A stretch of 53,595 bases of DNA from an uncultured Eubacteriales bacterium. GTDB lineage: Bacteria; Bacillota; Clostridia; Oscillospirales; Oscillospiraceae. Both the position numbers and the translations under genes were made by a program. Position 1 is the stretch's first letter, and every line of letters starts with the position of its first letter. The notes beneath the pieces are model-generated. The model searched no databases. It was not told the origin of the DNA and saw only the letters and a list, made by a program, of their open reading frames with translations. Positions 17,648 to 34,741 of this stretch are shown here, one piece after another. The stretch lies in NCBI GenBank assembly GCA_900319695.1, contig ONPN01000029.1:1-53595 (forward strand). Reading direction: 5' to 3'.

Positions 17648-17946
17648 CGTAGGGGCGACCCTTGCGGTCGCCCGGCTGCGAGACGTGAAGGAAACGAAAA
17701 ACGCACGGCGAATTCGTACGCGCTGCGAATTTACCGTGCGTTTACATTATACGAATCTCTAATAGAACCCTTTAAGTCTTCCCGGCAAAAATTGTGCCAA
17801 GCATCGTGAAAGCCCTTGGCCATATATCTCCATTATGCCCTGCGGGCTTTGCCTCGCCTGACGCAATTTTTGCTCAGAAATCCATTAAAGTTTTCTATCA
17901 GAGCTTCGTATTACATTGCAGGCGGTCGCAAGGGTCGTCCCTGCGG
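17648..17946. repeat. Composite inverted repeat enclosing a family A element
   Basis: GTAGGGGCGACCCTTGCGG at 17648 and its near inverse at 17918-17946 (GGTCGCAAGGGTCGTCCCTG) bracket 300 bases. Between them lie a second hairpin (17697-17743, AACGCACGG.../...CCGTGCGTTT) and the 163-base family A element 17749-17911. This accounts for nearly the whole 357-base gap 17600-17956. Confidence 0.75.
17749..17911 (+). repeat. Dispersed structured element, family A copy 1
   Basis: This 163-base element has an outer stem ATACGAA...TTCGTAT, a middle stem GCAAAAATTG/CAATTTTTGC and an inner stem AAAGCCC/GGGCTTT. The inner stem encloses a core of which CCATATATCTCCATTATGC (17820-17838) is identical in all three copies. 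Confidence 0.85.
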
Positions 17947-29939: not shown

Positions 29940-29945
29940 TCGTTC

Positions 29946-30090
29946 ATACTATCCCCTAATAGAAACAGCAAAATCTTTCCGGCAGAATTGGTGCCATACT
30001 GCGTTGCCTTCCTTGACCATATATCTCCATTATGCTCTGCGGAAGGCGCCTTGTCTGGCGCAAATTCTGCTCGGAAATCTAATTGCACTT
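29946..30090 (+). repeat. Dispersed structured element, family A copy 2, 3' end truncated
   Basis: It contains the invariant core CCATATATCTCCATTATGC (30017-30035) inside stem GCCTTCC/GGAAGGC, with middle stem GCAGAATT/AATTCTGC. The 5' outer arm starts CATACTATC; the matching 3' arm is missing, because the LCP gene begins to be coding there. The LCP stop codon at 30079-30081 lies inside the element. Confidence 0.8.
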
Positions 30091-31356
30091 CCAGCTCCCC
30101 GGCGCGGGCGGCGCTTCCTCCTCCGGCTCGATCGTCACTTCTTCGACCATCTCCTCCGGCTCCTCGGCGGGGGTCTCCTCCCGTCTGCCGAGGGAGAAGT
30201 AAGAGATGCCCTTGAGGGCCGTGGTGCAGCAGACCTCGCCCCCGCGCAGGTACACGAGGTCGAGCATGCCCTCGCTCACGGGCTGGGTGCCGGGGTTGAG
30301 GCAGTCGTTGACCATGTCGATCCAGTTGTAGAGGTCGAGGAAGGTATAGCTCAGATCGTGCACATAGGCGGGGGTGTTCGGCGCGGTGTAGAAGTGGACG
30401 TCCTCGCCCCGGCAGCGCAGGAACTGGCGGGCAAACCACGCCATGTTGGCGGCCGTCATATTGGTGTCCATGCTCTCGGCCAGGATCGCGGCGACCTCCG
30501 GGATGTTCGGGATGCTGCCGAGGCCGAGGAACTGGTTTGCGGCGGCCTTGAGGAAGTCGTGCTGCACCTTGATGCGGTCGAGATCGCCGTTGACGTAGCC
30601 GCTGCGGTAGCGGCAGAGCCACATGGCCTGCTCCCCGTTGAGAAGCTGAAAGCCCGGCCACAGGTCGATCACCGGCCCGTCCTCGTAGTACATGCGCTTC
30701 GGCACGTCGTACCAGATCCCGCCCAGGGCGTCCACCGCCCGCTCGAAGCCCTCGAGGGAAATGACCGCGTAGCAGTCTACATCAAAGCCGGTGAGCTTTT
30801 TGACGTGCCGCCGCAGGGCCTCGCTGCCGCTGGCCCCGCTGTAGACCGCCGTCCAGTATACGCCGTTGAGCTTGCGGATGGGTGTGTCGACGTTGATGAG
30901 CGTGTCACGCGGGATGCTGACAAAGTTTGCCGTGTGCCGCACGGTGTCGAGCTTTGCGACCATGATGGTGTCGGTGTTGCCGGTGCCGTCGTCGCTGCCC
31001 GCGAGCAGCAGGGTATAGACCCCGTCCTGCCGCTCGGTCTCAAAGGCCGTGCCCCGGTCCGGCGTAGGCGTCGGCGCGTCGGTGGGCGCCGCGCTCTCCT
31101 GCGTCTGGGCGATCTCCGTCAAAACGGGGTTGCCCGCCGCCAGCTCGGGCGGCTTTTCCCACAGGAAATACGCGCCCAGCGTCGCAGCGGCCAGCGCCGT
31201 GAGAGAGCTGCCGGCAATAATCAGCAGCCGCAGAAGACTTTCTTTCGACAGGTGCAGCCTGACAGCCGGCCGTAAAGGCAGCCTGATTCCCTTCATGCGC
31301 CGCAGCCAGGTCTCCCACAGCCGCCGCAGCCGGTCCAGCCATTTCTTTTTGTCCAT
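30079..31356 (-). CDS. LytR-CpsA-Psr (LCP) family protein
   Basis: LCP proteins transfer lipid-linked wall polymers onto peptidoglycan outside the membrane. The ATG at 31356 (AAAGGCGG upstream) gives 425 residues with a basic cytoplasmic tail of about 40, one membrane helix (RLLIIAGSSLTALAAATLGAYFLW) and a PT-rich linker. The catalytic domain shows LLLAGSDDGTGNTDTIMVAKLD, FVSIPRDTLI (the Arg/Asp pair that binds pyrophosphate) and CRYRSGYVNGDLDRIKVQHDFL. The acidic C-terminus (EETPAEEPEEMVEEVTIEPEEE) is unusual. The last residues and stop are coded by a repeat remnant. Confidence 0.9.
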   Translation of the reverse strand: MDKKKWLDRLRRLWETWLRRMKGIRLPLRPAVRLHLSKESLLRLLIIAGSSLTALAAATLGAYFLWEKPPELAAGNPVLTEIAQTQESAAPTDAPTPTPDRGTAFETERQDGVYTLLLAGSDDGTGNTDTIMVAKLDTVRHTANFVSIPRDTLINVDTPIRKLNGVYWTAVYSGASGSEALRRHVKKLTGFDVDCYAVISLEGFERAVDALGGIWYDVPKRMYYEDGPVIDLWPGFQLLNGEQAMWLCRYRSGYVNGDLDRIKVQHDFLKAAANQFLGLGSIPNIPEVAAILAESMDTNMTAANMAWFARQFLRCRGEDVHFYTAPNTPAYVHDLSYTFLDLYNWIDMVNDCLNPGTQPVSEGMLDLVYLRGGEVCCTTALKGISYFSLGRREETPAEEPEEMVEEVTIEPEEEAPPAPGSWKCN

Positions 31357-31434
31357 ATTTCCGCCTTTCCGCCCCGTCGGAGCGTTTTGGATTTCCTTTA
31401 TCGTCACTCGGGAGTATGGCCGCTTTTGCGCGGA

Positions 31435-31463
31435 ATCATACAGAGACGCTGAATAATTCACAA
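31435..31463 (-). promoter_or_regulatory. Promoter of LCP gene
   Basis: On the minus strand TTGTGA (31463-31458) and TATGAT (31440-31435) are 17 bases apart. Confidence 0.5.
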
Positions 31464-31532
31464 AAGAAATTTCGCCCTCCCGTTCTTTCCTGTTGCATTT
31501 TACCGAAATGGCCGGATGCTTCAAAAACGGCA

Positions 31533-31561
31533 TTGACTTTAGCACCAAAAAGTGCTAAAGT
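31533..31561 (+). promoter_or_regulatory. Promoter of the Tyr/Phe leader and importer operon
   Basis: TTGACT (31533-31538) and TAAAGT (31556-31561) have the ideal 17-base spacer. The transcript would start near 31568, just before the leader ribosome site AAAGGGAGAGG. Confidence 0.7.
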
Positions 31562-31562
31562 C
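31535..31562. promoter_or_regulatory. Perfect 11-bp palindrome covering the -35 to -10 region (candidate operator)
   Basis: GACTTTAGCAC (31535-31545) and GTGCTAAAGTC (31552-31562) are exact inverses around CAAAAA. A bound dimer here would block the polymerase, adding transcription-start control to the attenuator downstream. Confidence 0.6.
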
Positions 31563-31590
31563 TGCTTATCAACCAAAGGGAGAGGCTGTC

Positions 31591-31671
31591 ATGTCCGGAT
31601 TCCGATTTGCTTACGCAACCAGCTATTATTTCTATTATCGCCGTGATAATAGCGGTCTGCGCTGCAAGTGA
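31591..31671 (+). CDS. 26-residue leader peptide rich in Tyr and Phe
   Basis: This is a short frame with its own ribosome site (AAAGGGAG, 8-10 bases before the ATG). Eight of 26 residues are aromatic: Phe4, Phe6, Tyr8, Tyr12, Tyr13, Phe14, Tyr15 and Tyr16; there is no Trp. The five-codon run Tyr-Tyr-Phe-Tyr-Tyr (31624-31638) is the expected stall site when charged tRNA-Tyr or tRNA-Phe is short. Codons 22-24 (Gly-Leu-Arg) contain the antiterminator strand. The stop is at 31669-31671. It is too short to be found by usual gene callers. Confidence 0.8.
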   Translation: MSGFRFAYATSYYFYYRRDNSGLRCK

Positions 31672-31724
31672 TCGTCCCGACAGGACAGATGACGGGGCCC
31701 GTTCCCGATCAGCGCCGCGCAGAC
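31632..31724 (+). promoter_or_regulatory. Attenuator: pause hairpin and antiterminator
   Basis: CTATTATC (31632-31639) pairs with GATAATAG (31645-31652), a perfect 8-bp hairpin overlapping the last Tyr codons. GTCTGCGC (31655-31662), inside the leader codons, is the exact complement of GCGCAGAC (31717-31724), the 5' arm of the terminator. A ribosome stalled on the Tyr/Phe run would free 31655-31662 to pair and prevent termination; one that reaches the stop codon would cover it. Confidence 0.7.
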
Positions 31725-31743
31725 TGCCGTCTGGCGGCGTTTT
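31713..31743 (+). terminator. Attenuator terminator
   Basis: CGCCGC-G-CAGAC (31713-31724) pairs with GTCTGGCGGCG (31729-31739) over 11 bp with one bulged G and loop TGCC, followed by TTTT. Confidence 0.8.
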
Positions 31744-31749
31744 CACTTT

Positions 31750-31912
31750 ATACTGATCTCCCATAAAAACAAGCCAATCTTTGCGGTCAAAAATGCGCCA
31801 TGCTTCGTTATCGGCCTTGACCATATATCTCCATTATGCTCTGCGGCCGCTGCCTCGCCTGACACATTTTTGCCTCGCAAATCTTTGTCTGCTTTCTATG
31901 GAAGATCAGTAT
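31750..31912 (+). repeat. Dispersed structured element, family A copy 3
   Basis: This element is 163 bases, the same length as copy 1. Outer stem ATACTGATC.../...GATCAGTAT, middle stem CAAAAATG/CATTTTTG and inner stem CGGCC/GGCCG enclose the invariant core at 31821-31839. It lies between the attenuator terminator and the binding-protein gene. With the promoters, leader and attenuator it explains the 610-base gap 31357-31966. Confidence 0.85.
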
Positions 31913-31966
31913 CAGGCCCCCATCCCCCCCGTTTGAAATCAAAACAGATAAAAGGAGAACACGCAC

Positions 31967-32991: not shown

Positions 32992-33936
32992 GTGACATTA
33001 ACAAGCTATTTCGCTTCATTGAATATATTGAAGCTCTTCCGCAATATGCCGGGCGGCGTGTCCCAGGGCATCATCTGGGGCATCATGGCACTGGGCATTT
33101 ACATCACCTTCCGCCTGCTGGACGTGGCCGACCTGACCGTGGACGGCTCCTTCACCACGGGCGGCGCGGTGACAGTCATGCTGATCCTGGGCGGCTGGCC
33201 CGCGTGGGCGGCGCTCCTGGTGGCCATGCTGGCGGGTCTGCTGGCGGGTTTCGTGACCGGCACGCTCCACACCAAGCTGGGCATTCCCGCGATCCTCGCC
33301 GGTATCCTGACGCAGTTTTCCCTGTACTCCATCAACCTGCACATCATGGGCATGGCTGCCAACAAGGCGGTCAGCGTCGATAAATACAATCTCCTGCTCT
33401 CCTCCCGCAACATCCCCTCCGCCATCCTGACCGGCTGCATCATCGCGCTGGCGCTGGTGTCCGTCTTCTACTGGTACTTCGGCACCGAGCAGGGCTCCGC
33501 CATCCGCGCGACCGGCAACAACCCCGCCATGAGCCGCGCCCTCGGCATCAACATCGACAACATGAAGGTGCTGGGTCTGTCCCTCTCCAACGGCATTGTG
33601 GCTCTTGCGGGCGGTCTGCTTGCCCAGTATCAGGGCTTTGCGGACATCAACATGGGCCGCGGCGCGATCGTCATCGGCCTGGCCGCCGTCATCATCGGCG
33701 AGGTGGTGGGTGGCGCGATTCTCGGCAAGCGCCTCAACTTCTACGGCACGCTGAGCTTTACCGTCGTCGGCGGCATTGTGTACTATCTGGTCATCGTCAT
33801 CGTGTTGTGGCTGCGCCTCAACTCCAACGATCTCAAGCTCTTCACCGCCGTGGTGGTGGCGCTGTTCCTGGCCGTCCCCTACCTGCGAGGACAGAAGAAG
33901 AGCTCCTTTGCCAAGCTCAGGCGGAAGGGAGGCTGA
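32992..33936 (+). CDS. ABC transporter permease (TrpY/LivH-like)
   Basis: This is the membrane subunit, 314 residues with 8-9 hydrophobic helices. The start is a GTG at 32992 with GAGGTG 6 bases upstream. The segments GIIWGIMALGIYITFRLLDVADLTVDGSF and GSAIRATGNNPAMSRALGINIDNMKVLGLSLSNGIVALAGGLLAQYQGFADINMG are characteristic of the branched-chain-type permeases paired with TrpX-like receptors. The basic C-terminus is cytoplasmic. It is 4 bases from the ATPase gene. Confidence 0.92.
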   Translation: MTLTSYFASLNILKLFRNMPGGVSQGIIWGIMALGIYITFRLLDVADLTVDGSFTTGGAVTVMLILGGWPAWAALLVAMLAGLLAGFVTGTLHTKLGIPAILAGILTQFSLYSINLHIMGMAANKAVSVDKYNLLLSSRNIPSAILTGCIIALALVSVFYWYFGTEQGSAIRATGNNPAMSRALGINIDNMKVLGLSLSNGIVALAGGLLAQYQGFADINMGRGAIVIGLAAVIIGEVVGGAILGKRLNFYGTLSFTVVGGIVYYLVIVIVLWLRLNSNDLKLFTAVVVALFLAVPYLRGQKKSSFAKLRRKGG

Positions 33937-33940
33937 CACG

Positions 33941-34741
33941 ATGCTGGTTTTACAGAACATTTCCAAGACCTTTAACCCCGGCACCATCAACGAGAAGAAG
34001 GCCCTCGACGGGCTGAATCTGCATCTCAGGCCCGGCGACTTTGTCACCGTCATCGGCGGCAACGGCGCGGGCAAGTCCACCATGCTCAACGCGGTGGCGG
34101 GCGTCTGGCCCGTGGACGAGGGGCGCATCCTCCTTGACGGGCAGGACATCACCGCCCTGCCGGAGCACAAGCGCGCCCACCTGATCGGCCGCGTGTTCCA
34201 GGACCCCATGATGGGCACCGCGCCCAACATGCAGCTCGAGGAGAACCTGGCCCTGGCTGCCCGCCGCGGTCAGCGCCGCGGCTTGAGCTGGGGCGTCACC
34301 AACGCCGAGCGCGAGGAGTACCACGAGCGCCTCAAAATCCTCGGCCTCGGCCTTGAGGACCGCATGACCTCCAAGGTCGGCCTGCTCTCCGGCGGTCAGC
34401 GCCAGGCGGTCACGCTGCTGATGGCCGTGCTGAGAAAGCCGAAGCTCCTGCTCCTGGACGAGCATACCGCCGCTCTCGACCCCGGCACCGCCGCGAAGGT
34501 GCTGGAGCTGTCGGACAAGATCGTGCAGGAAAACGGTCTCACCACCCTGATGATCACCCACAACATGAAGGACGCCATCCGCCACGGCAACCGCCTCATT
34601 ATGATGAACGAGGGACACATCATCCTCGACATCGAGGGCGAGGAGAAAAAGAAGCTCACCAAGCAGCAGCTCATCGACATGTTTGCCCAGAAGGGCGCCT
34701 CCATCGACTCCGACGAGGCCCTGCTCACCAAGGGCGGCTGA
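33941..34741 (+). CDS. ABC transporter ATP-binding protein (TrpZ-like)
   Basis: This is the ATPase subunit, 266 residues. The ATG at 33941 has GAAGGGAGG before it; the longer frame from 33776 is overlap with the permease. Walker A is GGNGAGKST (about residue 39), the Q-loop FQDPMMG, the signature LSGGQRQ, Walker B LLLLDEHTAALDP, and the switch His is in MITHNM. It completes receptor-permease-ATPase in one operon that ends at a strong terminator 17 bases on. Confidence 0.95.
   Translation: MLVLQNISKTFNPGTINEKKALDGLNLHLRPGDFVTVIGGNGAGKSTMLNAVAGVWPVDEGRILLDGQDITALPEHKRAHLIGRVFQDPMMGTAPNMQLEENLALAARRGQRRGLSWGVTNAEREEYHERLKILGLGLEDRMTSKVGLLSGGQRQAVTLLMAVLRKPKLLLLDEHTAALDPGTAAKVLELSDKIVQENGLTTLMITHNMKDAIRHGNRLIMMNEGHIILDIEGEEKKKLTKQQLIDMFAQKGASIDSDEALLTKGG

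Follow-up and report, generated by a model that had tools for sequence, protein, structure and literature searches.

In the window analysed here, a stretch of 53,595 nucleotides of contig ONPN01000029.1 from an uncultured Oscillospiraceae bacterium, an ABC importer operon is preceded by what is very probably a transcription attenuator of the pheL/trpL type, ribosome-mediated and induced by starvation, which senses the charging of tRNA-Tyr and tRNA-Phe; stalling, read-through, ligand and co-induction are predictions. The preliminary description of this DNA had proposed such a switch, and the proposal passed checks on the aromatic codon run, on compensated pairing and on orthologous operons, with induction by starvation itself still a prediction. 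The device is not isolated, as the usual target of its family in the loci read is aroF, the gene for DAHP synthase. We consider it probable that a single, hitherto undescribed family of Tyr/Phe attenuators is old enough to reach from the Clostridia into classes nearby, that it governs DAHP synthase in some of these bacteria, and that one or a few copying events placed it before a tyrosine importer. One and the same cell would then read a single shortage in two ways, with T-boxes that sense uncharged tRNA for its synthetases and with stalled ribosomes for its supply genes.

The leader region and its parts

The features of the leader (window positions 31533-31966) and of the operon behind it are as follows.

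31533-31561, plus strand: promoter-like hexamers TTGACT-17-TAAAGT with an extended -10, overlapping the dyad 31535-31545/31552-31562
31575-31585, plus strand: ribosome binding site of the leader ORF, AAAGGGAGAGG, recognised by sequence
31591-31671, plus strand: leader peptide ORF of 26 codons, MSGFRFAYATSYYFYYRRDNSGLRCK-stop; aromatic leaders also occur in relatives
31614-31629, plus strand: strand 1 of the protecting hairpin, from arm pairing; 1:2 covaries in relatives
31624-31638, plus strand: control codons Tyr-Tyr-Phe-Tyr-Tyr
31646-31665, plus strand: strand 2, of which 31646-31661 pairs with strand 1 or, alternatively, the antiterminator arm 31652-31665 pairs with strand 3
31714-31727, plus strand: strand 3, antiterminator partner and 5' arm and loop of the terminator
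31713-31743, plus strand: intrinsic terminator, 11 pairs in 31713-31739, then TTTT
About 31747-31914, no strand assigned: dispersed repeat, its ends inverted, that separates the attenuator from the importer and has partial matches in the genome
31967-32923, plus strand: substrate-binding protein (ABC_sub_bind), CD0873-like, with putative tyrosine-selecting residues E246 and Y262
32992-33936, plus strand: ABC permease (BPD_transp_2)
33938-34741, plus strand: ABC ATPase, start codon taken as 33938

Every part that the preliminary description had listed is present, namely promoter-like hexamers, the 26-codon aromatic leader (5 Tyr, 3 Phe and 0 Trp codons), an 8-bp hairpin (31632-31639/31645-31652), the complementarity of GTCTGCGC (31655-31662) to GCGCAGAC (31717-31724), and an 11-bp terminator with TTTT. 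Three elements were not in that account: an arm pair of 16 nt (31614-31629/31646-31661), whose formation competes with that of the antiterminator; a dyad within the promoter, perfect over 11 bp, ACTTTAGCAC-N6-GTGCTAAAGT (31535-31545/31552-31562); and the dispersed repeat behind the terminator. The complementary match is enclosed by a longer arm pair, 31652-31665/31714-31727, in which 12 of 14 positions are paired. The leader RNA has a folding z-score of -4.08, and none of 200 shuffles was equally stable. Relatives carry variants of the 29-mer 31533-31561 that forms the promoter-like region. Divergent from the importer, a LytR-CpsA-Psr family gene occupies 30079-31548 on the minus strand.

The repeat at 31747-31914 has 28-nt inverted ends that are 82% complementary. 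Partial matches to it recur at no fewer than 26 other places in the genome, of which 17738-17882 and 29943-30080 lie in the window. It looks like a MITE, it is missing from the close relative L134, and it probably lies outside the switch.

The attenuators of E. coli pheL and trpL are built, in order, from a leader peptide with control codons, a protecting hairpin 1:2, an antiterminator 2:3 and a terminator 3:4. The window leader has the same order of elements: a short ORF with a ribosome site and a run of regulatory codons, a hairpin 1:2 that overlaps the antiterminator strand, and an antiterminator and intrinsic terminator that are mutually exclusive. By homology, the targets of its family (aroF, pheA, tyrA and the CD0873-like receptor) make or import the amino acid sensed. 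Unlike the E. coli leaders, it belongs to another lineage, has another sequence, stands before an ABC importer or aroF, and mixes Tyr and Phe in its run. The type of device is known; the lineage and the genes that it precedes are new for it.

With both tRNA-Tyr and tRNA-Phe charged, the ribosome would pass the aromatic codons to the stop and mask strand 2, strand 3 would then pair with strand 4, and transcription would end after 31743. With no ribosome nearby, hairpin 1:2 would hide strand 2 and termination would follow likewise. Under a shortage of charged tRNA-Tyr or tRNA-Phe, the ribosome would be expected to stall at codons 12-16 and cover strand 1, and strand 2, now free, would pair with strand 3, block the terminator and allow transcription of the importer operon.

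Conservation before the importer

A DNA search for the leader in 99 genomes, the own genome included, gave matches in 22, all from one genus. Among the matches outside the own genome, 21 of 22 precede the receptor gene, and the receptor products are 52-91% identical; the L031 match, which lies at neither aroF nor a receptor, was taken as chance. A covariance model (R1) built from the window leader and the 21 DNA-matched leaders found matches in 72 of 102 genomes of the genus. A match at L268 (20.8 bits), again at neither aroF nor a receptor, was likewise put down to chance. The 80 receptor matches across 75 genomes of the genus have an R1 match within 600 nt upstream in 63 cases, or in 41 of 58 once the 22 leaders that trained the model are left out of the count. 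The aromatic run is kept before orthologous operons, as the attenuator proposal expected. The other 17 receptors comprise three with a diverged Tyr-rich leader that the model search missed (L239, L240, L243), eight with no recognisable leader (L232, L233, L235-L238, L241, L242), three distant paralogues and three contig ends, two of the last judged from coordinates.

Several of these loci deserve mention in their own right. In L232 and L233 the importer orthologues retain the promoter, have neither leader nor terminator, and perhaps represent a natural constitutive version. The distant receptor paralogues (L244, L245, L246; about 40% identical) have T-box-like sequences upstream, as judged by eye, and receptors of this family may therefore switch sensor type. 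The importer leaders of L019, L022, L184 and L185 are dominated by Phe, not Tyr, and their receptors are more diverged (52-59% identical).

In a scan of named genomes, R1 matched at 13 of the 80 best receptor loci and not at the other 67, a few of which have less than 270 nt of upstream sequence; within these 80, no locus titled Lachnospiraceae had a match.

A wider family before aroF, pheA and tyrA

The window genome carries a second leader of the family, before the DAHP synthase gene aroF (MKSSLVFASYYTFTGVRG). This aroF scores above the cut-offs of two DAHP synthase models, TIGR01361 and NF006421, and the leader itself was not reported by R1 at E 0.01 in the whole-genome search. Elsewhere in the genus R1 gave 49 matches away from the receptor, and 38 of the 40 examined precede aroF. 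Across the order, R1 matched 65 of 394 genomes (E ≤0.01). Besides the own locus, the 29 order loci read are the stronger matches, many of the others lying near E 0.01; all 29 have Tyr/Phe-rich leaders, 28 preceding aroF and one preceding a receptor gene.

A second model (R2), built from 75 leaders with the own aroF leader among them, was used at E ≤0.001. It matched 61 of 394 order genomes (training genomes among them, own counted), 36 of 391 class genomes (own counted) and 5 of 398 phylum genomes (own counted), four of these last lying outside the class. The 29 class loci read, none of them in R2 training and with 7 further places left out, have aroF just after the leader on the same strand in 27 cases, L289 among them; at one locus the leader precedes pheA (chorismate mutase/prephenate dehydratase) and at another tyrA (prephenate dehydrogenase). 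Beyond the class, all four loci show aroF and then tyrA. The distribution is wide-ranging but scattered, since most genomes searched have no match, although the searches overlook diverged leaders such as those of L239, L240 and L243. As a control device the family thus seems to range widely and to have gone largely unrecognised. Similarity among the leaders suggests that the importer leader may descend from an aroF leader. The aroF promoters of L177 and L178 are similar to that of the importer and contain TTGACTTT and GTGCTAAAGT.

Since the same leader family stands before aroF in the own genome and, in relatives, before aroF and in single cases pheA or tyrA, synthesis and uptake are probably induced together.

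Codons probably sensed

In the 22 DNA-matched leaders, where the ORF taken was the most aromatic of those that have a ribosome site, Tyr and Phe account for 145 of 438 codons in frame (33.1%), compared with 35 and 42 of 416 (8.4% and 10.1%) in the other frames. For 66 leaders the figure is 527 of 1481 codons after the start (35.6%), against 10.2% and 12.7% in the other frames, a count biased upward because the leader caller kept only Tyr/Phe-rich ORFs. TGG occurs just 3 times in these 66 leaders, as against the 527 Tyr and Phe codons. The importer leaders are richer in Tyr (19.3% Tyr vs 15.7% Phe) and the aroF leaders in Phe (19.0% Phe vs 17.0% Tyr). Apart from this richness in Tyr and Phe, the leader peptide sequences differ widely.

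Pairing and predicted switching

The 31655/31717 pairing that the preliminary description had pointed out is conserved with compensatory changes. RNAalifold, given no structure, picked the antiterminator helix. In 22 leaders, 97.9% of 242 cells of this helix are paired and double changes occur in 5 of 11 pairs; none of 500 shuffles, which ignore the relatedness of the leaders, was as high in either respect. The number of further pair types was equalled by 12 of 500 shuffles. The window leader itself has one antiterminator double change, U-A to C-G. In a 75-sequence alignment, which was fitted to the model and so leans toward it by construction, 94.9% of 798 cells are paired and 8 of 11 pairs show double changes.

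Arm swaps between species point the same way. They were made in the 66 non-redundant leaders (33 importer, 33 aroF) that remained after L068, L075 and L110 (by eye, another kind of leader) and L146 (terminator mis-called) had been dropped. When antiterminator arms are swapped, mean pairing weakens from -20.7 to -17.0 kcal/mol in the importer set and from -18.4 to -13.1 kcal/mol in the aroF set, and in either set none of 20,000 permutations, which again disregard relatedness, is as good as the leaders' own arms. Because the leaders share the core motif, the own 5' arm outranks all other partners, out of 33, in no more than 5 importer and 4 aroF cases. Swapping the arms of the protecting hairpin 1:2 gives the same average result. 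In the 65 leaders left when L164 is set aside from the tests of hairpin 1:2 and strand overlap (its strand is too short), hairpin 1:2 and antiterminator 2:3 share at least 3 paired nucleotides in 51 and fewer than 3 in 14, with none shared in 4.

Predicted folding gives states that match the proposed switch. In RNA cut before the 3' arm of the terminator, with a ribosome on some aromatic codon, the antiterminator can form in 66 of 66 leaders. In full-length RNA, the terminator is predicted in 66 of 66 with a ribosome at the stop, and without antiterminator in 64 of 66 when the RNA is naked. For RNA reaching to the terminator loop, the predicted antiterminator pairing is 0.92 (importer) and 0.88 (aroF) with a ribosome stalled in mid-run, 0.25 and 0.34 in naked RNA, and 0.12 and 0.11 once the ribosome has reached the stop. 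Values above 0.5 occur in 65, 19 and 4 of the 66 leaders under these three states, respectively. As naked RNA favours the antiterminator in 19 of 66, ribosome-free RNA may permit some basal read-through. Relative to the first paired base of the antiterminator arm, the start of the stop codon lies within a range from 43 nt downstream to 15 nt upstream in 65 of 65 leaders.

The receptor and its likely substrate

The preliminary description had called the importer TrpX/CD0873-like. The likeness to CD0873 stands, being borne out by tyrosine-type residues; the reading as a TrpX tryptophan transporter does not, with the receptor scoring 219.3 bits on NCBIfam TrpX (NF041285), below the curated cut-off of 390. 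The best PDB match of the receptor is 6hni (3e-44), which we take to be CD0873; the residue numbering agrees. In CD0873 of C. difficile, the hydroxyl of tyrosine is bound by Glu-263, and Tyr-279 keeps tryptophan out (PMC6816091). The window receptor aligns E246 and Y262 to these two residues, a numbering offset of 21 also placing Val-235 and Pro-236, and both positions are invariant across 14 receptors. By alignment, the receptor thus has the CD0873-type pair, a Glu for the tyrosine hydroxyl and a Tyr against tryptophan. The other two PDB matches, 3lkv and 3lft, have Ala/Tyr and Ala/Gln at the E246/Y262 positions and are reported with Phe and Trp bound (PMC6816091).

On these residues, the importer most likely carries tyrosine and possibly phenylalanine. 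The assignment is strengthened by the targets of the leader family, aroF, pheA and tyrA, together with the tyrosine-type receptor, and the earlier proposal of a tyrosine and/or phenylalanine importer is supported to this extent, with the substrate a prediction.

T-boxes and alternative explanations

No Rfam family reached the gathering score in the window, where the leader stretch gave just two chance-level matches, nor did any at the leader in 20 further loci; the leader gave no match to the T-box family RF00230. The window genome has 8 T-box matches (E ≤5e-10), two of them above the curated cut-off, and in 14 control genomes the T-box search (E ≤1) gave matches in 7 and passed the cut-off in 2. 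The genes after the 8 matches are tyrS, alaS, thrS and a gene for a TrpB-like enzyme, all above cut-off in a family search; a leuA-like gene and valS (cut by the locus end), below cut-off; a pheS-like frame (L196, 929-1459, minus strand, 177 residues, 2e-23), also below cut-off; and, by eye, a helix-turn-helix/ligase gene. Importer and aroF are not among them. That the leader is itself a T-box or another known riboswitch might seem attractive in a genome with T-box matches before tyrS and a pheS fragment, and given that S. suis trpX has a T-box (PMC9382623), but the covariance-model searches contradict it, and we give this reading next to no credence. Slightly less negligible, and still highly improbable, is the view that leader and terminator are debris of a 5' UTR, conserved through close relatedness. 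The importer version is indeed concentrated in one genus, and the tests take no account of relatedness; against this stand the compensatory changes, the frame-specific aromatic codons and the matches in other orders before expected genes, and the permutation and shuffle results largely contradict it.

Short translated leaders with a conserved run can also signal nascent-chain arrest, and on this view the leader would be an arrest peptide of the TnaC or erm type that stalls in response to a drug or to a surplus of free amino acid, with the opposite sense of induction. Yet the peptides share little beyond richness in Tyr and Phe, and the same leader family stands before biosynthetic aroF, pheA and tyrA, which fits starvation and not excess; we regard arrest as very unlikely. 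The alternative with most in its favour, though in our judgement unlikely, is that a DNA-binding repressor at the promoter dyad exerts the main control and the attenuator merely fine-tunes. The dyad is perfect over 11 bp and lies inside the promoter, its core has no other copy in the genome at ≤2 mismatches, and a similar dyad can be made out by eye before the importer genes of L235-L238 and L241, which have no leader. The same search offers no further site for a regulon operator in the own genome, and no regulator was identified. In relatives the 29-mers vary in their left half with the right half mostly fixed, so paired changes do not maintain the symmetry. Such a repressor would in any case be compatible with attenuation, not exclusive of it.

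Relation to known systems and biological meaning

Full-text searches of an open-licence library gave no description of the Tyr/Phe leader family. A 2003 comparative study reportedly treated aromatic amino acid regulation in low-GC Gram-positives. Several known systems come near to the attenuator. In C. glutamicum, the aroF leader (aroR) encodes a Phe-Tyr-Phe leader peptide before DAHP synthase (PMC4046766, PMC11802643); unlike the present family it is actinobacterial, has three aromatic residues, and has no importer target in the text consulted. The uORFC-13-1 motif, before Acholeplasma aroF, combines a uORF with Phe codons and a terminator and has been proposed as an attenuator; it differs in comprising 24 sequences from Acholeplasma and unassigned environmental sources (PMC8632094). 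Histidine leaders of Firmicutes, including C. difficile, share classical leader-peptide attenuation and differ in controlling histidine genes (PMC2965389, PMC9413887). The trpX T-box of S. suis, which reads uncharged tRNA-Trp directly, likewise places the receptor of a related ABC importer under control by aminoacylation, but does so as a T-box RNA, with no leader peptide in the text consulted (PMC9382623). For CD0873, the likeness lies in the Glu-263 and Tyr-279 positions, conserved in the window receptor by alignment (PMC6816091).

The Tyr/Phe leader helps to assign a substrate in a receptor family that databases label as tryptophan or sugar binding. With it one can also test why a genome that has T-boxes retains attenuation by leader peptide for further genes concerned with the same amino acid. 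The window organism is a relative of animal-gut Clostridia. In gut-type Clostridia, the metabolism of tyrosine and phenylalanine yields host-active compounds, and the leader is a marker, readable from sequence, of the genes that supply aromatic amino acids in these bacteria.
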